DNA from: Halococcus qingdaonensis
GTDB lineage: Archaea > Halobacteriota > Halobacteria > Halobacteriales > Halococcaceae
Assembly: GCF_024508235.1 (NCBI RefSeq)
Contig: NZ_CP101943.1
Span: 310,001-374,000 of the forward strand
Reading direction: 5' to 3'
Length of the DNA: 64,000 nt
Under the pieces are notes generated by a model. That model was not told the DNA's origin. It was given only the letters and a program-made list of their open reading frames with translations, and did no database searches. Of this stretch, positions 9,279 through 42,930 are shown piece after piece; the first letter of the stretch is position 1, and each line of letters opens with the position of its first letter. The position numbers were made by a program, and so were the translations under genes.

Positions 9279-9362
9279 ACGGCGTGTCAGGTCGCTCGCG
9301 GGCGGAAAGAATCAATCCTTATGTGAGTGCGCTCCAAAGCATCGCCACGAGCAACCAAGCAC

Positions 9363-9764
9363 ATGAATGAATGGATAGCTGTCGGGGCGCTGGCGTTCGT
9401 CGCCATCGCAGTCCCGCTCTCGTTGCTGGGCGTATCGTTCCTGTTGCGACCCAGCGTGCCCGAACAGGGAAAAGCGGCCGTCTACGAGTCGGGTGAGGTC
9501 CCGACGGGCAACACGCGCATCCGGTTCAACATCCAGTACTACATGGTCGCGCTGTTGTTCCTCGTCTTCGACATCGAGACGGTGCTCATTTTCCCGTGGA
9601 CGGTCATCTACCGCGACGCCGTACAGAGCGCGGGGCTGGCCGCGGCGCTCGTGCCGATGTTGATCTTCATCGGCGTGCTCGTCGTCGGGCTCGCGTGGGC
9701 GTGGCGTAACGGCGCGGTGCAGTGGATCCACAGCCAGAATTCGAACAGTACGACACGACAATGA
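9363..9764 (+). CDS. nuoA: NADH-type dehydrogenase (complex I) subunit A
   Basis: This 133-residue membrane subunit has three helices (about residues 5-27, 60-84 and 90-113). The conserved loop YESGEVPTGNTRIRFNIQYY and FLVFDIETVLIFPW, which carries the conserved acidic pair, are present. NuoA helps connect the peripheral and membrane arms near the quinone chamber. The ATG at 9363 follows an open stretch to 9327 that lacks family similarity. It is the first gene of nuoA-B-CD-H-I, overlapping nuoB by ATGA. Confidence 0.95.
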   Translation: MNEWIAVGALAFVAIAVPLSLLGVSFLLRPSVPEQGKAAVYESGEVPTGNTRIRFNIQYYMVALLFLVFDIETVLIFPWTVIYRDAVQSAGLAAALVPMLIFIGVLVVGLAWAWRNGAVQWIHSQNSNSTTRQ

Positions 9765-10453
9765 GTAGCGACAATCAACCTCAGACCGCGGACGCACAGA
9801 CGACTCAGGAGGCCCGGATGGGCGGCGGGACGGACAACCGGTTCAACTCCAAGCTCAGAAACGCCTTCGGCTCCTCGCCGTTCATCCTCACGAAGTTCGA
9901 CTCGTTCATGAACTGGGTGCGTGGCTCCTCGATGTTCATGCTCCAGTTCGGCATCGCCTGCTGTTCGATCGAGATGATGCACACCTACGCGGTGAAACAC
10001 GACCTCGATCGCTTCGGCTCCGGCGTCCCCCGGGCGTCGCCACGACAGGCCGACGTGATCATCGTGCCGGGCACCATCGTCTCGAAGTTCGCCCCGCGGA
10101 TGAAGCGGGTCTACGACCAGATGCCCGAACCGAAGTTCGTCGTCTCGATGGGCTCGTGTACCATCTCGGGCGGCCCGTTCCAGAAGGGATACAACGTCGT
10201 CAAGGGTGCCGAGGAGGTCATCCCGGTCGACATCCACGTGCCGGGCTGCCCGCCGCGACCGGAAGCGCTCATCTACGGCGTCGCGAAGCTTCAGGAGCGC
10301 ATCTCCGAAGGTGAGTCGGCTCCGGTGACGGTCAAGCCGTACGAACTCCAACAGTTCGGCGATCTGGAGCGCGACGAGCTCGTCGACGAGCTCGCCGACG
10401 AGATCGATCGGGACACGCTCGTCATGCGGTACAACTGGAACGATTCGCCATGA
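9761..10453 (+). CDS. nuoB: Complex I subunit B (N2 cluster)
   Basis: This 230-residue subunit carries the terminal 4Fe-4S cluster N2, which reduces quinone. The ligands are visible: the adjacent Cys pair in [11 protein letters not shown], the Cys in [11 protein letters not shown], and the Cys in [15 protein letters not shown]. The N-terminal 30 residues are polar and absent from bacterial homologues. It overlaps nuoA (4 bp) and nuoCD (4 bp), indicating one polycistronic unit. Confidence 0.97.
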
Positions 10454-12126
10454 GTCTGGAACGACCGACCGATCGAACCGACGCCGTCGGCGTCACCGAA
10501 GAGGGACTCGACTACGACGCGCTCGCCGATCTGCTCGGCGACAGCGTGGTGAGCCGTGAACAGCACCACCACACGGAGGCCTTCACCATCCGGCCCGACG
10601 AGGTCCAGGACGTGCTGTTCGCGCTGCGTGATCAGGCAGGCTTCGATCACTGCTCGAACGTCACTGCCCAGGAGTACGAAAACCGCTTCGAGACGGTCTA
10701 CAACCTGAAGAAATACGTCGATCCCACGCAGGAGCTCTCCGTCGTCGTGCCGGCGTCGAAGGACAACCCCGTGAGCCAGAGCGCGGAGCCGGTCTACCGG
10801 ACCGCCGACTGGCACGAGCGCGAGGCCTACGATCTGGTCGGCATCCAGTACGAGGGCCATCCCGACATGCGTCGGATCCTCCTGCCCGAGACGTGGAAAG
10901 GCCACCCGATGGGGCTCGACTACAACCAGGAGAAGCCCCAGATCGTCACGCTCGAAGCGCACGCCAACCCGCTCGAAGACGACGAGCACGATGCCGGTGC
11001 GGACACGATGTATCTGAACATCGGCCCACACCACCCGGCGACACACGGCGTGCTCCACATCGAGACGGTGCTCGACGGCGAGCAGGTCGCCCACGTCGAG
11101 CCCGACATCGGCTATCTCCACCGCTGTGAGGAGCAGATGGCACAGCAGGGCACCTACCGCCACGAGATCATGCCCTATCCCGATCGCTGGGACTACGTCT
11201 CGGCCGGTATCCTGAACGAGTGGGCGTACGCCCGTACCGCCGAGGAACTGACCGACCTCGACGTACCCGACTACGCACAGGTCATCCGGACGATGAGCGC
11301 CGAGCTCTGCCGGATCGCCGCGCACATGCTCGCGGTCGGCACGTTCGCGCTCGACGTTTACGGCGAGTTCACCGCGACGTTCATGTACGCGTTCCGCGAC
11401 CGCGAGGTCGTCGAGAACATCCTTGAAGATCTGACGGGCCAGCGACTGATGTTCAACTATCTCCGGCTCGGTGGCGTGGCGTGGGACCTGCCCGAACCGC
11501 GCGAGGATTTCTTCGAGAAGATCCGGGACTTCCTCGACGGGCTCCCCCACAAGCTCGACGAGTACCACGACCTGCTGACCTCGAACGAGATCTTCCAGCT
11601 GCGCTGTGCGAACACCGGCGTGCTCGACGCCGAGACGGCCAAACAGTACGGTGCGACCGGCCCCGTCGCCCGCGCGTCGGGCGTCGACTACGACATCCGG
11701 CGCGACGACCCCTACGGCTACTACCCCGAACTCGACTGGGACGTCGTGACCGCCGAGGAGGGCGACAACTACGCGCGCGTGCTCTGTCGGCTCCAGGAGG
11801 TCGAGGAGTCCGCACGCATCATCGACCAGTGTGTCGACCTGCTCGAAGACTGGCCGGAAGACGACCGCGAGATCCAGTCGAACGTGCCCCGGACGCTCCG
11901 TCCGGACGACGATGCGGAGATCTACCGCGCCGTCGAGGGCGCGAAGGGTGAACTCGGCATCTACATCCGGAGCGACGGTACCGACAAGCCGGCCCGGTTC
12001 AAGATCCGCAGTCCGGCGTTCTCGAACCTGCAGACGCTGCCGGAGCTCGCCGTCGGCGAGTACGTGCCGGACCTGATCGCGTCGCTCGCGAGCCTCGATA
12101 TCGTCCTCGGTGAGGTCGATCGATGA
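10450..12126 (+). CDS. nuoCD: Fused complex I subunit C/D (operon copy)
   Basis: This 558-residue fusion has a NuoC domain (about 1-160, with YRTADWHEREAYDLVGI and LPETWKGHPM) and a NuoD domain (about 190-558). NuoD forms much of the quinone pocket. The pocket His lies in NIGPHHPATHGVLHIE, and the pocket tyrosine is Tyr249 in PDRWDYVSAGILNEW. RLGGVAWDLP and the C-terminal ASLDIVLGEVDR are present. It sits in the operon between nuoB and nuoH with 4-bp overlaps. A highly similar paralogue lies at 41278-42930. Confidence 0.97.
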   Translation: MSLERPTDRTDAVGVTEEGLDYDALADLLGDSVVSREQHHHTEAFTIRPDEVQDVLFALRDQAGFDHCSNVTAQEYENRFETVYNLKKYVDPTQELSVVVPASKDNPVSQSAEPVYRTADWHEREAYDLVGIQYEGHPDMRRILLPETWKGHPMGLDYNQEKPQIVTLEAHANPLEDDEHDAGADTMYLNIGPHHPATHGVLHIETVLDGEQVAHVEPDIGYLHRCEEQMAQQGTYRHEIMPYPDRWDYVSAGILNEWAYARTAEELTDLDVPDYAQVIRTMSAELCRIAAHMLAVGTFALDVYGEFTATFMYAFRDREVVENILEDLTGQRLMFNYLRLGGVAWDLPEPREDFFEKIRDFLDGLPHKLDEYHDLLTSNEIFQLRCANTGVLDAETAKQYGATGPVARASGVDYDIRRDDPYGYYPELDWDVVTAEEGDNYARVLCRLQEVEESARIIDQCVDLLEDWPEDDREIQSNVPRTLRPDDDAEIYRAVEGAKGELGIYIRSDGTDKPARFKIRSPAFSNLQTLPELAVGEYVPDLIASLASLDIVLGEVDR

Positions 12127-13262
12127 GCGTTTCGGAGATCGTCTTCCAGGCGGGCAACGCCACGAACGGCTCCGGGGCGGCGAACGCGACGAACGCCTCG
12201 GCGGCCGGCGGCGGACAGACGTTCCCCGAGATCCTGAGCGGGCTGCTCGGCCTCGGGCCGAACCCCGATCCCGGCCTGCAGTTCCTGTTCGCGATCGTCG
12301 GCGCGACGCTTATCGCCGTGCTCTTCTTGACGATCGCCGCGGTCGGCGGTATCTGGGGCAAGCGGAAGATCACGGCCGCGTTCACCGACCGGATCGCGGT
12401 CAATCGGGTCGGTCCGTTCGGCCTGTTGATCATCGTCGCCGACGCGGTGCGACTGCTCTCGAAGGAAGTCATCATTCCCGACGCCGTCGACCGCCCGGCG
12501 TTCGATATCGCGCCGATGGTGCTCCCGTTCTCGGCGCTGTTGGGCTTCGCGGTGATCCCGCTTGGCAGCGGGCTGCAGCTGGCCGACCCGGAGACGGGCT
12601 TCGTGTTCGTCTTCGCGGCCTCCTCGCTTGCCTCGCTCGGACTCCTGATGTCCGGCTACTCGTCGAACAACAAGTACTCGTTCCTCGGCGGGCTGCGCGC
12701 GCTCGCACAGAACCTCGCCTACGAGATCCCGCTGGTGGTGACGGGCGCGTCGGTCGTCCTGTTTACCGGCACGCTCAAGCTAAGCGAGGTCGTCGCCGTT
12801 CAGAGTCAGCCGCTGCTGACGATCGGCGGGCTGACGATCCCGTCGTGGTTCGCGTTCGTCAACCCGTTCGCATTCGTGCTGTTCCTGATCGCGAACCTCG
12901 CCGAAGTCGGCCGCAACCCGTTCGATACGCCCGAAGCGCCGGGCGAGCTGGTGGCGGGCTACATGACCGAGTATTCGGGCGCGTACTTCGTGCTGCTCTA
13001 TCTCGGCGAGTTCCTCCACATCTTCCTCGGCGGCGCGATCGTCGCGACGCTGTTCCTCGGCGGCCCCGCCGGACCGGTCCTGCCGGGGCTCGTCTGGATG
13101 GTGATCAAGATCCTCGCGGTGTATCTGTTCACCCAGTGGATGCGCTCGGCGATGCCGCGCGTTCGTATCGACCAGATGATCGAGATCGGTTGGAAGGGCC
13201 TGCTCGTGATGAGCTTTGCCAACCTCGTGCTCACGGCGATCCTCGTGGGCGTGATCGCCTAA
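12123..13262 (+). CDS. nuoH: Complex I subunit H
   Basis: This 379-residue membrane subunit has an estimated eight or nine helices and forms the floor of the quinone channel. Typical motifs are KRKITAAFTDRIAVNRVGPFG, the loop FLIANLAEVGRNPFDTPEAPGEL, and GYMTEYSGAYFVLLYLGEF with its conserved acidic residues. It has an unusually Ala/Asn-rich N-terminus (GNATNGSGAANATNAS) before the first helix. It overlaps nuoCD by 4 bp. Confidence 0.97.
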   Translation: MSVSEIVFQAGNATNGSGAANATNASAAGGGQTFPEILSGLLGLGPNPDPGLQFLFAIVGATLIAVLFLTIAAVGGIWGKRKITAAFTDRIAVNRVGPFGLLIIVADAVRLLSKEVIIPDAVDRPAFDIAPMVLPFSALLGFAVIPLGSGLQLADPETGFVFVFAASSLASLGLLMSGYSSNNKYSFLGGLRALAQNLAYEIPLVVTGASVVLFTGTLKLSEVVAVQSQPLLTIGGLTIPSWFAFVNPFAFVLFLIANLAEVGRNPFDTPEAPGELVAGYMTEYSGAYFVLLYLGEFLHIFLGGAIVATLFLGGPAGPVLPGLVWMVIKILAVYLFTQWMRSAMPRVRIDQMIEIGWKGLLVMSFANLVLTAILVGVIA

Positions 13263-13272
13263 CTACAAACCC

Positions 13273-13734
13273 ATGATCGGACTGCTCAAATCGATGGCGA
13301 CGACGATGAGACACGCACTCGACGGCTCGACGTTCACCGTCGAGTATCCCGATACCGCACCCGAGGTCAGCCCCCGTTTCCGTGGGGTCCACAAGTTCAG
13401 CCAGGAGCGCTGTATCTGGTGTCGGCAGTGTGAGAACGTTTGCCCGAACGACACCATCCAGATCGTGATGGACGAACAGCGCAACGGCGAGCAGTACAAC
13501 CTCCACATCGGGCAGTGTATCTACTGCCGGCTCTGTGAGGAGGTCTGTCCCGTCGACGCGATCCTCCTGACCCAGAACTTCGAGTTCACCGCCGACACGA
13601 AAGACGAGTTCGCGCTCAACAAAGAGGAGCTGAAGAACGTCCCGTGGTACAAGGACATCGACCCGCTCGAAGCCCGCGAACCCGACCGTGGCGGATGGGT
13701 CGGCGAGGGCGAGGGCGAACTCGACTACCAGTAG
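13273..13734 (+). CDS. nuoI: Complex I subunit I, 2x[4Fe-4S] ferredoxin
   Basis: This 153-residue subunit has two ferredoxin motifs, CIWCRQCENVCP and CIYCRLCEEVCP, binding clusters N6a and N6b that feed N2. It ends in an acidic tail. It is the last nuo gene here: the membrane subunits J, K, L, M and N that normally follow in haloarchaeal operons are absent from the window. The next gene has its own TATA box. Confidence 0.96.
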   Translation: MIGLLKSMATTMRHALDGSTFTVEYPDTAPEVSPRFRGVHKFSQERCIWCRQCENVCPNDTIQIVMDEQRNGEQYNLHIGQCIYCRLCEEVCPVDAILLTQNFEFTADTKDEFALNKEELKNVPWYKDIDPLEAREPDRGGWVGEGEGELDYQ

Positions 13735-13802: not shown

Positions 13803-14387
13803 ATGCCAACGACCGACACCACAGATACGGCGACCGAGACGACGGACACAGAGAGCGAAACGACGGGAACGGCGACCGAGTCCACGGAGAACGGCACGGC
13901 GCAAGCGACTACGACGAGCGAGCCCACGACCAACGGTACTGCGACGGCGACCGAAACCACAGGGACGGCGACGGAGACGCCAAGCGAAACCACGGAAACG
14001 GCGACCGAAACGACGAACACGACGACCGGGACCGAAACCACGACAACTGAGAGCACTACTACAGCGACCGAGATCACGGACGAGGAGAGCGACGCCGACG
14101 CGGAACTGACCGCGTTCGCCGGGGGGTCGTCGACACGGACGGCGGTACTCGAACGGCTCGTCACCGGGCCGGCGAACGCCAGCGACATCGCCACGCGTGA
14201 TCCGCCGAACGTCGAGGACATGCACGGCGTCACGGGCAATCTGAGTGTCAGCAAAACCCGATCCGCGATCGATACACTCCGCGATCGCGGGCTGGTCGAA
14301 CTGCTCGTCGATAACGAAACGCCCATCTACAGCCTCACTGCCAAGGGCGAGCGGATTCTGTTCGAGATCGAACGGAACGACGGCTGA
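13803..14387 (+). CDS. Thr-rich protein with C-terminal winged helix-turn-helix
   Basis: This 194-residue protein has two very different halves. Residues 1 to about 95 are almost only Thr, Glu, Ala, Ser and Asn in short degenerate repeats (TETTDT, TATETT), with no signal peptide or membrane helix. Residues from about 100 to the end form a compact wHTH: RTAVLERLVTGPANASDIA, then a recognition segment TGNLSVSKTRSAIDTLRDRG, then a wing ending LTAKGERILFEIE. The wHTH half resembles MarR/PadR-like haloarchaeal regulators. It follows nuoI and precedes the convergent halocyanin gene. Target and role are unknown. Confidence 0.75.
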   Translation: MPTTDTTDTATETTDTESETTGTATESTENGTAQATTTSEPTTNGTATATETTGTATETPSETTETATETTNTTTGTETTTTESTTTATEITDEESDADAELTAFAGGSSTRTAVLERLVTGPANASDIATRDPPNVEDMHGVTGNLSVSKTRSAIDTLRDRGLVELLVDNETPIYSLTAKGERILFEIERNDG

Positions 14388-40504: not shown

Positions 40505-41164
40505 TTACCCCTCGCCGACGACATGGTGAACGAGCGCGGCTTCGGCCTTCCGGAGATGCTCGGCGGCCGTCCCGGGCGCACAGTCCAACTCCTGGGCGAC
40601 GTCGGCGACCGTGGCCTCCCGCGGTGTCTCGTAATAGCCGCGTTCGAGCGCGATCGTCAGTGCCTCGGACTGGCGCTCGCTCAGGGCGCTCGCGGCATCC
40701 ATCCGCCCCGCGTCGTACTGGCCGGCGCGTCGAACGTCGACGTCGACGCCGGGCGGGGCCTCGTCGAGCGCGCGCTGGAGCGATGCGGCCGTCCCGACGA
40801 CGGTGAGGCCGATGGTGCGGTCGGTGCGGTAATCGATCGGTGGCATCACGACGATGCTGCCGTGCGTGAAGGCGTCGGTCAGTCGCCGCGTTCCGGCGTC
40901 GAGTCGCTCGCGCGCGTAGACGTAGAACCCGTCGCCGTCGGTCGACACCACCTCGTGCTCCAGGACCGTCGCGACGTCAGCGAGCGTCTCCGCGTAGGGT
41001 TCGGGCGGCCCCTCGGCGTAGAATATCATCGTGTTCGTCTCGCCGACGGCGGGGTTCCACTGGAGGAGGCGATAGGACTCGTATCCCTCGTGGCTGGCGA
41101 CGAACTCGTGCATCGGATGGATGATCCCTTCGCTCTGGCCGAGGCGCAGTCGCAGATATTTCAT
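40505..41164 (-). CDS. Bacterio-opsin activator-like HTH regulator
   Basis: This 219-residue regulator has an N-terminal sensor-like domain (to about 155). A C-terminal HTH_10 follows: LSERQSEALTIALERGYYET, then TVADVAQELDCAPGTAAEHLRKAEAAL. The Bat/HTH_10 family controls bacteriorhodopsin and many redox or light-related haloarchaeal genes. It is transcribed divergently from the second nuoCD, 113 bp away, with a palindrome at its own promoter, suggesting that it regulates itself and possibly nuoCD. Confidence 0.9.
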   Translation of the reverse strand: MKYLRLRLGQSEGIIHPMHEFVASHEGYESYRLLQWNPAVGETNTMIFYAEGPPEPYAETLADVATVLEHEVVSTDGDGFYVYARERLDAGTRRLTDAFTHGSIVVMPPIDYRTDRTIGLTVVGTAASLQRALDEAPPGVDVDVRRAGQYDAGRMDAASALSERQSEALTIALERGYYETPREATVADVAQELDCAPGTAAEHLRKAEAALVHHVVGEG

Positions 41165-41186
41165 GACGGGTGTTGTCGTCCTGGAA

Positions 41187-41194
41187 CTTAAACT
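41187..41194 (-). promoter_or_regulatory. TATA-like element of the HTH regulator gene
   Basis: On the minus strand AGTTTAAG lies 23-30 bp ahead of the ATG at 41164, the leaderless spacing. The 16-bp palindrome ends two bases upstream of it, over the presumed BRE. Confidence 0.5.
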
Positions 41195-41195
41195 A

Positions 41196-41211
41196 GCCTC
41201 GCTAGCGAGGC
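41196..41211. promoter_or_regulatory. 16-bp perfect palindrome between the HTH regulator and nuoCD2 (operator candidate)
   Basis: GCCTCGCTAGCGAGGC is fully self-complementary and lies where TFB would bind at the regulator promoter, and 67 bp from the nuoCD2 ATG. A dimeric HTH protein bound here would interfere with its own transcription. The identity of the bound protein is inference. Confidence 0.6.
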
Positions 41212-41249
41212 AGAACGCGCTCGATGCTGGCGATCGATCGTCCGGTATC

Positions 41250-41267
41250 GTCGGCCGGCAAGCCGAC
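41250..41267. promoter_or_regulatory. 6-bp inverted repeat before nuoCD2
   Basis: GTCGGC and GCCGAC flank six bases and end 10 bp ahead of the ATG at 41278. It overlaps the expected transcript start, and could be a repressor site or a 5' hairpin. Confidence 0.3.
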
Positions 41268-41277
41268 AGTTCACAGC

Positions 41278-42930
41278 ATGAGCTCGCAGTCACCCATCGA
41301 ACCGCGGAACGACGATCTCGACGAACCGCTCGCGGAACTGCTCTCCCCGTACACCGTCGCCCGCGACGACCACCGCAACGCACCGGGATTCGTCGTGCGA
41401 CCCGACGAGGTCCAGGACGTCCTGTTCACGCTGCGCGACGAGGCGGGCTTCGATCACTGTTCGAACGTCACCGCTCAGGAGTACGAAGACCGCTTCGAGA
41501 GCATCTATCACCTGAAGAAATACGCCGATCCGACCGCCGAAGTAAGCGTCATCGTCCCCACACCGCGGGACGATCCCGTGAGCCAGAGCGCGGAGCCGGT
41601 CTACCGAACCGCCGACTGGCACGAGCGCGAGGCCTACGATCTGGTTGGTATCGAGTACGAGGACCATCCGGATCTACGCCGGATCCTCCTGCCCGAGACG
41701 TGGCAGGGCCATCCGATGGGGCTGGAGTACAACCAGGAGAAACCCCAGATCGTCACGCTCGAAGCGCACGCCAACCCGCTCGAAGACGACCAACACGACG
41801 CCGGTTCGGATACGATGTTCCTGAACATCGGCCCACACCACCCGGCGACCCACGGCGTGCTCCATATCGAGACGGTGCTCGACGGCGAACAGGTCGCCGC
41901 CGTCGATCCGGATCCGGGCTATCTCCATCGCTGCGAGGAACAGCTGTGTCAGCAAGGGACCTACCGCCACGAGATCATGCCCTACCCGGACCGCTGGGAC
42001 TACCTTGGCGGACAGATTCTGAACGAGTGGGCGTACGCCCGTACCGCCGAGGAGCTCGCGGATCTCGACGTACCCGAATACGCACAGCTCATCCGCACGA
42101 TGAGCGGCGAACTCTCGCGAATCCTCGCCCACATGCTCGCGATCGGGACGTTCGCGCTCGACGTCTACGGGGAGTTCACCGCGACCTTCATGTACGCTCT
42201 CCGCGACCGCGAGATCGTCCAGGGAATCCTCGAAGACCTGACGGGCCAGCGGCTGATGTTCAACTACCTCCGGCTCGGTGGCGTGGCCTGGGACCTGCCC
42301 GAACCGCGCGCAGCGTTTTTCACGAAGATCCGTGATTTCCTGAACGAACTCCCACACAAACTCGACGAGTATCACGATCTGCTCACGACGAACGAGATCT
42401 TCCAGCTTCGATGCGTCGATACCGGGGTCCTTGACGCCGAGACGGCGAAACAGTACGGCTGCACCGGCCCCGTCGCCCGCGCCTCGGGCGTCGACTACGA
42501 TCTGCGCCGTGACGATCCCTACGGCTACTACCCCGAACTCGATTGGGACGTCGTGACTGCCGAGGAGGGCGACAACTATGCACGCGTGCTCTGTCGGCTC
42601 CAGGAGATCGAGCAGTCCGCACGTATCATCGATCAGTGTGTGGATCTGCTCGAAGATTGGCCGACAGACGACCGCGAGATCCAGTCGAACGTGCCCCGGA
42701 CGCTGCGCCCGGACGACGCCGAGCTCTATCGCGCCGTCGAGGGCGCGAAGGGCGAGCTCGGTATCTACATCCGGAGCGACGGCACCGACACACCGGCCAG
42801 ATTCAAGATCCGCAGTCCGTGTTTTGCGAACCTCCACGCGCTGGAAGAGATGGCCGTCGGCGAGTACGTCCCGGATCTCATCGCGTCGCTCGCGAGCCTC
42901 GATATCGTTCTCGGCGAGGTCGATCGCTGA
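41278..42930 (+). CDS. Second, stand-alone NuoCD (paralogue)
   Basis: This 550-residue protein is collinear with the operon NuoCD across the whole chain, with long identical stretches such as TEEGDNYARVLCRL-type segments and the same C-terminus ASLDIVLGEVDR. The quinone-site His (NIGPHHPATHG) and Tyr (Tyr242 in DRWDYLGGQILNEW) are kept. Residues right after the Tyr change from VSAG to LGGQ. Other changes cluster at DPDPGYLHRCEEQLCQQ and SGELSRILAH. The N-terminal ~35 residues are unrelated. No other nuo gene is adjacent; a Bat-type regulator is divergent. Confidence 0.95.
   Translation: MSSQSPIEPRNDDLDEPLAELLSPYTVARDDHRNAPGFVVRPDEVQDVLFTLRDEAGFDHCSNVTAQEYEDRFESIYHLKKYADPTAEVSVIVPTPRDDPVSQSAEPVYRTADWHEREAYDLVGIEYEDHPDLRRILLPETWQGHPMGLEYNQEKPQIVTLEAHANPLEDDQHDAGSDTMFLNIGPHHPATHGVLHIETVLDGEQVAAVDPDPGYLHRCEEQLCQQGTYRHEIMPYPDRWDYLGGQILNEWAYARTAEELADLDVPEYAQLIRTMSGELSRILAHMLAIGTFALDVYGEFTATFMYALRDREIVQGILEDLTGQRLMFNYLRLGGVAWDLPEPRAAFFTKIRDFLNELPHKLDEYHDLLTTNEIFQLRCVDTGVLDAETAKQYGCTGPVARASGVDYDLRRDDPYGYYPELDWDVVTAEEGDNYARVLCRLQEIEQSARIIDQCVDLLEDWPTDDREIQSNVPRTLRPDDAELYRAVEGAKGELGIYIRSDGTDTPARFKIRSPCFANLHALEEMAVGEYVPDLIASLASLDIVLGEVDR

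Follow-up and report, generated by a model that had tools for sequence, protein, structure and literature searches.

A second NuoCD gene with an altered quinone pocket, paired with a divergent HTH_10 regulator in Halococcus and across Halobacteriales

Why should a Halococcus genome hold, besides the NuoCD gene of its nuo operon, a second and stand-alone copy facing a divergently transcribed regulator? The question is raised by a 64,000-nucleotide stretch of Halococcus qingdaonensis (the window; positions 310001-374000 of a single-contig genome of 2.70 Mb). The Halococcus orphan is chromosomal. We use "complex I" here for the Nuo core, because haloarchaeal Nuo does not have the NADH module (NuoEFG) and may pass electrons from ferredoxin to menaquinone (PMC8305020).

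The orphan gene, its regulator, and the DNA between them

The orphan NuoCD gene (41278-42930, forward strand; 550 aa) is an intact open reading frame with both expected Pfam domains above their curated cut-offs (Complex1_30kDa, 1.4e-35; Complex1_49kDa, 1.3e-84), and it passes the NCBIfam NuoD model PRK06075 with 383.5 bits against a cut-off of 360. Counted from an alternative upstream ATG at 41224, the frame spans 41224-42930 and 568 aa, but the start is likely the ATG at 41278, because the resulting N-terminus, beginning MSSQ, is common to the other Halococcus orphans. The nearest named relative is Halococcus morrhuae, with 96% identity for the orphan. The operon NuoCD, found as an open reading frame aligning with the orphan and carrying the motif DRWDYVSAG (10450-12126, forward strand; 558 aa), lies 29.1 kb away; an alignment of 550 codons gives 83.6% identity for protein and 83.8% for DNA, with divergence over the first approximately 37 residues. 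The sequence-only reading had described a collinear, very similar second copy with an unrelated N-terminus of 35 residues and with the pocket His and Tyr kept (His192, equivalent to Nqo4 His38, and Tyr242, equivalent to Tyr87); its description of the locus was right in every checkable detail, except for the label "Bat-type" beyond the HTH_10 domain. The operon reads nuoA-nuoB-nuoCD-nuoH-nuoI (9327-13734, forward strand), and its nuoH is the only copy in the genome. The nuo cluster seems to be split, as three proton-antiporter-type genes (candidate L, M, and N) lie about 390 kb away at 713-717.5 kb of the genome; an HTH-like open reading frame follows nuoI at 13803.

The divergent regulator (40505-41164, reverse strand; 219 aa) consists of an HVO_0513_N domain (3.7e-24) and an HTH_10 domain (2.6e-16), both above their curated Pfam cut-offs. 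The comparison with Bat holds for the HTH_10 DNA-binding domain but not for Bat's PAS and GAF sensors, none of which was found in a Pfam domain search. The proposed redox or light signal is not supported, as no light or redox domain was found in the regulator. Its structure model, a confident one (pLDDT 91.6), has two ferredoxin-like beta-alpha-beta repeats ahead of the HTH, a predicted fold consistent with a ligand-binding domain; structural matches to the model were uninformative as to the ligand and named none. The make-up is that of HVO_0513-type HTH_10 regulators in general, but the window type differs from these in appearing dedicated to an adjoining respiratory gene. No paper on the founding protein HVO_0513 was found in the literature searched.

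The palindrome reported between the two genes is present, a 16-bp GCCTCGCTAGCGAGGC at 41196-41211 that occurs once in the window. Overlapping it is a candidate operator, CCTC-N6-GAGGCAGAAC (41197-41216, forward strand), which is conserved in the pairs of other families and, at one mismatch or fewer, has no second occurrence in the 2.7-Mb genome; the regulator is therefore probably dedicated to the orphan locus. Upstream of it lies a TATA-like element, CTTAAAC (41187-41193), at a spacing similar to that in the aligned intergenic regions, and this may act as a promoter element. Across the Halobacteriales pairs, the element consists of a TATA-like box followed by CCTC-N6-GAGGCAGAA, with diverged forms that include GTGAGGCAG and TGACGCAGAATCG. 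Of 91 intergenic regions, 28 contain GAGGCAG, where base-shuffled controls averaged 1.0, and 30 contain TGA[GC]GCAG, where shuffling gave 0.3; these counts overstate independence because the regions include close relatives.

Recurrence of the pair across Halobacteriales

A search of nine near-complete Halococcus genomes found the orphan in six, and all six have a regulator ortholog (69 to 100% identity). The three genomes with one NuoCD each (G004, G005, and G009) have only distant regulator paralogs, at 39% identity or less. In one genome (G002), several frameshifted NuoCD pieces make the copy count uncertain. Another, G007, has two orphans (L226 and L228), each with its own regulator copy and 97% identical to each other over the last 420 residues. 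The dN/dS of the orphan orthologs was 0.04 to 0.09, compared with 0.01 to 0.16 for the operon copy; rather than relaxed (dN/dS near 1), the orphan is under strong purifying selection, with a dN/dS no higher than the operon range. NuoH was single in every Halococcus genome with a match.

The nearest regulator relatives outside Halococcus (45 to 50% identity) adjoin orphan NuoCDs of a different type, in which the tyrosine of the DRWDY motif is tryptophan (W type). An independent census by DNA pattern covered 215 Halobacteriales genomes: 80 of them, spread over 31 of 68 genera, have a DRWDW NuoCD and 212 have DRWDY, and reversed control patterns gave no match. NuoH is single in 55 of 60 W-carrying genomes. 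Among the 212 NuoCD genes in the fetched loci, a divergent HTH_10 gene stood beside 93 of 100 stand-alone DRWDW copies and none of the 86 DRWDY operon copies; these counts give association and not frequency, as the motif itself served to gather many of the W loci, and near-duplicates occur among them. It also stood beside all 8 Halococcus DRWDYLGGQ entries, some of which are the same gene fetched twice. The sequence-only reading had suggested looking for other orphan nuoCD genes with an HTH_10 neighbour, and we found that the pair recurs across the order, which argues that the pairing is not due to chance. Orphan and operon NuoCDs share the same two domains, a similar length, collinearity, and presumably their partners; operon copies, on the other hand, keep DRWDY except in six W takeovers, and none in the sample has the HTH_10 neighbour. 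Our searches found no paper on a second haloarchaeal NuoD.

Besides the regulator, no universal gene neighbour was seen, and the flanking genes differ by family. Related cassettes with the regulator annotated alongside are on plasmids in Natrinema pellirubrum and Haloarcula halophila, and W-like matches occur on Halobellus and Halalkalicoccus plasmids; these plasmid copies and differing flanks indicate that the cassette moves between replicons or lineages. In one subclade of about 12 loci, an alpha/beta hydrolase whose closest solved structures are epoxide hydrolases is found beside or near the regulator. W genes in this subclade, including cross-family pairs, are 81 to 98% identical (mostly 81 to 88%), where operon pairs have a median of 77%, and this cross-family similarity suggests some transfer. 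An epoxide-hydrolase-like gene was also found at L246:1562-2521 and L247:1583-2476, and two cases are on annotated plasmids. The gene downstream of the Halococcus orphan encodes an esterase; we considered whether it was the counterpart of the epoxide-hydrolase-like gene and rejected this, as the two are unrelated.

The quinone pocket and the history of the gene

The tyrosine at the quinone site of complex I is regarded as strictly conserved and as a probable proton donor to quinone, a step that is still debated. The headgroup is held by Tyr87 in Thermus and Tyr108 in mammals (PMC8119997). The catalytic domains of the Halococcus orphan and operon copies differ at 14 fixed positions, four of which are the residues directly after the equivalent Tyr242 (Nqo4 Tyr87, NDUFS2 Tyr108), where the alignment gives LGGQ in place of the operon VSAG (residues 243-246; Tyr242 to Gln246 at 42001-42015, forward strand). 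Other fixed differences include I213P (Pro213 at 41914-41916, forward strand; Ile in operon copies), which turns DIGYLHR into DPGYLHR beside Nqo4 Leu62, and A277G, C280S, A283L, and L/V289I. The last four make Gly277, Ser280, Leu283, and Ile289 orphan-specific in a helix segment (residues 277-289; 42106-42144, forward strand) that ends just ahead of the Thr156 equivalent. The changes at 243-246 and 213, pointed out already from the window, are confirmed, and every Halococcus orphan examined has them. The differences are concentrated at the quinone pocket instead of being evenly scattered, and the C domain of the orphan is 77 to 86% identical to that of the operon copy.

In nearly all regulator-NuoCD pairs outside Halococcus, the quinone tyrosine is tryptophan, and W-type orphans keep the histidine. 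At a 75% criterion, W-type orphans and operon Y copies are told apart by seven columns, and four of the six besides Tyr87 lie in quinone-pocket segments. Five of the seven, numbered by hand from the alignment to Nqo4, are Leu62 to Ile/Met, Tyr87 to Trp, Cys to Ser at 124, Phe to Tyr at 136, and Leu to Met at 404; the remaining two are a Cys to Ser in RSPxF and a Ser to Thr in the C domain. The strongest separators are Tyr87 to Trp (100%/100%) and Leu404 to Met (100%/99%). Position 136 adjoins the Thr156 equivalent, and position 404 is that of Phe425, which along with Tyr108 contributed strongly to piericidin binding in simulations (PMC7567858). The window orphan falls outside the W-type class by its residue at the Tyr87 position, which is Tyr. 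Its Gly244, Ser280, and Leu283 nonetheless match the W type, and other operon copies rarely or never have them (Leu283 absent; Ser280 in 10%). Part of the W-type pocket is thus present in the Halococcus orphan despite its Tyr, whether by convergence or by retention, two histories that the sequences do not distinguish.

History trees were built with the pocket columns removed. On these, and with the bootstrap of the underlying tree not yet settled, a single origin of the W type was not rejected (p-AU 0.40), but a grouping of the Halococcus orphans with the W type was (p-AU 0.011; 89 log-likelihood units). The scatter of W types in a quick tree, which would have meant polyphyly, proved to be a search artefact, since the quick tree scored far below one in which all W genes formed a single clade. 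No large W-derived mosaic tract was found in the Halococcus orphan with 45-column windows. By the tree evidence, the Halococcus orphan is derived from the operon gene and not from the W clade. On the simplest account, the regulator originally controlled an ancient W paralog; in Halococcus the operon copy would later have overwritten that gene and left the regulator and cis-element in place.

Replacement in the other direction is also seen. A W-type NuoCD lies inside the Nuo operon in six genomes (L146, L173, L176, L177, L178, and L203). In G201 (L177), it is the sole NuoCD; in G109, a W form in the operon coexists with a broken W-type orphan remnant beside the regulator (L175); and G217 also has the W form in the operon. 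Interchangeability of the W and operon forms in the same enzyme has its strongest evidence in these natural exchanges, which do not show why the takeover happened.

Possible roles of the second subunit

The sequence-only reading had proposed a subunit swapped in to retune the quinone site. Comparison lends the swap good support, through the regulator pairing, selection, pocket changes, single NuoH, and operon replacement, and we consider it probable that the orphan is swapped in, whatever the purpose; retuning is one of two purposes we weigh for it. The cell has a single Nuo (complex I-like) enzyme, and the orphan would provide it with an alternative subunit at the quinone site. Driven by its own promoter under the divergent HTH_10 regulator, it would take the place of the operon NuoCD beside the NuoB, NuoH, NuoI, and membrane arm common to both forms. 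The part of the protein that contacts other subunits is conserved and the deep end of the pocket rebuilt: in most genera by Tyr87 to Trp with Ile/Met62, Ser124, Tyr136, and Met404, and in Halococcus by altering residues 88-91 and the Thr156-side helix around a retained Tyr. Most likely, the altered site would let turnover continue when a quinone-like inhibitor is present, and the regulator would sense that inhibitor. This inducible target replacement, in which the swap-in orphan confers tolerance of a quinone-site poison, is our leading reading, held tentatively and at somewhat less than even odds; the assembly, inducible expression, ligand, and poison-tolerance purpose in it are what we infer.

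Three explanations would do without such a swap into a working enzyme. If the orphan were a recent, redundant Halococcus duplicate that landed by chance beside a common type of regulator, its origin from the operon gene, with the W grouping rejected (p-AU 0.011), would be explained, and HTH_10 genes are indeed numerous (24 to 57 first-look candidates per Halococcus genome). However, the low dN/dS, the presence of the regulator in exactly those Halococcus genomes that have the orphan, the recurrence of this regulator type and cis-element beside NuoCD in other families, and the clustering of four of the 14 fixed differences directly after the quinone Tyr make this very improbable. Still less probable is membership of the orphan in some other membrane complex, either a hydrogenase-like one or a second Nuo. 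Related large subunits do serve such complexes, and the complex that a NuoCD or HycE enters is determined by its N-terminal domain (PMC7050243), but only one NuoH is present in Halococcus and in 55 of 60 W-carrying genomes, the assembly-directing C domain is 77 to 86% identical to the operon copy, and W genes replace the operon gene in place. The orphan might instead act as a brake, assembling but reducing quinone poorly, so that complex I idles, or so that reverse electron flow and radical formation cease under stress. In Yarrowia, the Tyr144 variants tested are reported to have all been essentially incapable of Q9 reduction (PMC7567858), as a brake would need. The W form, however, is the only one in G201 and sits in the operon in G217 and G109, the co-conserved companion residues of W types fit a working site better than a dead one, and the Halococcus orphans retain Tyr; we regard a brake as improbable, if less so than the two preceding explanations.

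The closest competitor accepts the same swap-in and assigns it to quinone or redox tuning, i.e., to another menaquinone form, quinone/quinol ratio, or lower driving force, with a regulator that would respond to respiratory state. All of the swap-in evidence fits it equally well; a Nuo that may work from ferredoxin to menaquinone (PMC8305020) could need its potential adjusted, and in helminth complex II the pocket is known to have changed to suit another quinone (PMC8659336). On the other side, no redox domain was found in the regulator, the cassette is carried on plasmids, W is fixed as the sole copy in G201, and the few recurrent neighbours that were identified include no recognisable quinone-biosynthesis gene. 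We consider tuning unlikely as the purpose, but a serious alternative. Poison tolerance is modestly favoured over it because of the Trp in a piericidin producer, the raised inhibitor IC50 of Yarrowia Tyr variants (PMC7567858), the altered inhibitor-contact positions, plasmid carriage, the dedicated regulator, and the putative detoxifying neighbour. Several points weigh against poison tolerance as well. Halococcus retains the Tyr, so the piericidin argument is only indirect for its copy; Yarrowia Tyr variants could hardly reduce Q9 (PMC7567858), so the Trp form could have low activity with long-chain menaquinone; and the epoxide-hydrolase neighbour is limited to about 12 loci. We know of no natural complex I poison from brines.

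In inducible target-replacement resistance, a spare insensitive copy of a drug target lies beside its regulator. The orphan locus resembles this in its spare copy and its paired, probably dedicated regulator, and it has a conserved, unique cis-element as a candidate operator; related cassettes are portable on plasmids, with a putative detoxifying enzyme in one subclade. The locus differs in that the haloarchaeal target is a subunit of a large respiratory complex, and its insensitivity is putative. The complex I of the piericidin producer Streptomyces mobaraensis likewise has Trp at NDUFS2 Tyr108, but in the producer's own complex I genes, which are not described as a regulated second copy (PMC7567858). 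The nearest known parallel, as its abstract presents it, is the NDUFS2 paralog pair GAS-1 and NDUF-2.2 of Caenorhabditis elegans, two genes for the same quinone-site subunit, where broader expression of the second paralog rescues a mutant of the first (PMC11265314). That pair is under tissue-specific control in an animal, no exchange of its quinone tyrosine is mentioned in the abstract (PMC11265314), and it has neither an adjacent dedicated regulator nor plasmid carriage.

A more specific and more speculative form of target replacement is a portable, inducible complex I bypass, in which a spare subunit, with Trp where catalysis is universally assumed to need tyrosine, keeps the enzyme working under a natural quinone-site poison; it is possible, and we hold it more loosely than target replacement in general. 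If true, quinone-site poisons occur in brines and complex I reduces quinone without the tyrosine. Dozens of lineages carry Trp there in a regulator-paired second copy, at least one genome has it as the sole copy, and few companion changes go with it. A widespread natural exchange at the quinone ligand with a dedicated regulator would surprise a specialist. It suggests either that natural inhibitors of complex I exist as a class so far hidden or that archaea tune their respiration in a way that has gone unrecognised. The role of the tyrosine becomes testable in organisms that can be grown and manipulated, and the regulator offers a signal to seek.

Two further kinds of NuoCD-like gene were observed. 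A third stand-alone type (n = 10; L079, L081, L102, L106, L173, L178, L241, L243, L244, and L245), without an HTH_10 neighbour, reads DRWDYT[AS]N[LM][PT]NEW and is one residue shorter after the quinone tyrosine. At G020:C1:618509-620990, a distant second NuoCD-like gene (36%) occurs as a set with a NuoH-like gene (35%), probably for another membrane complex.
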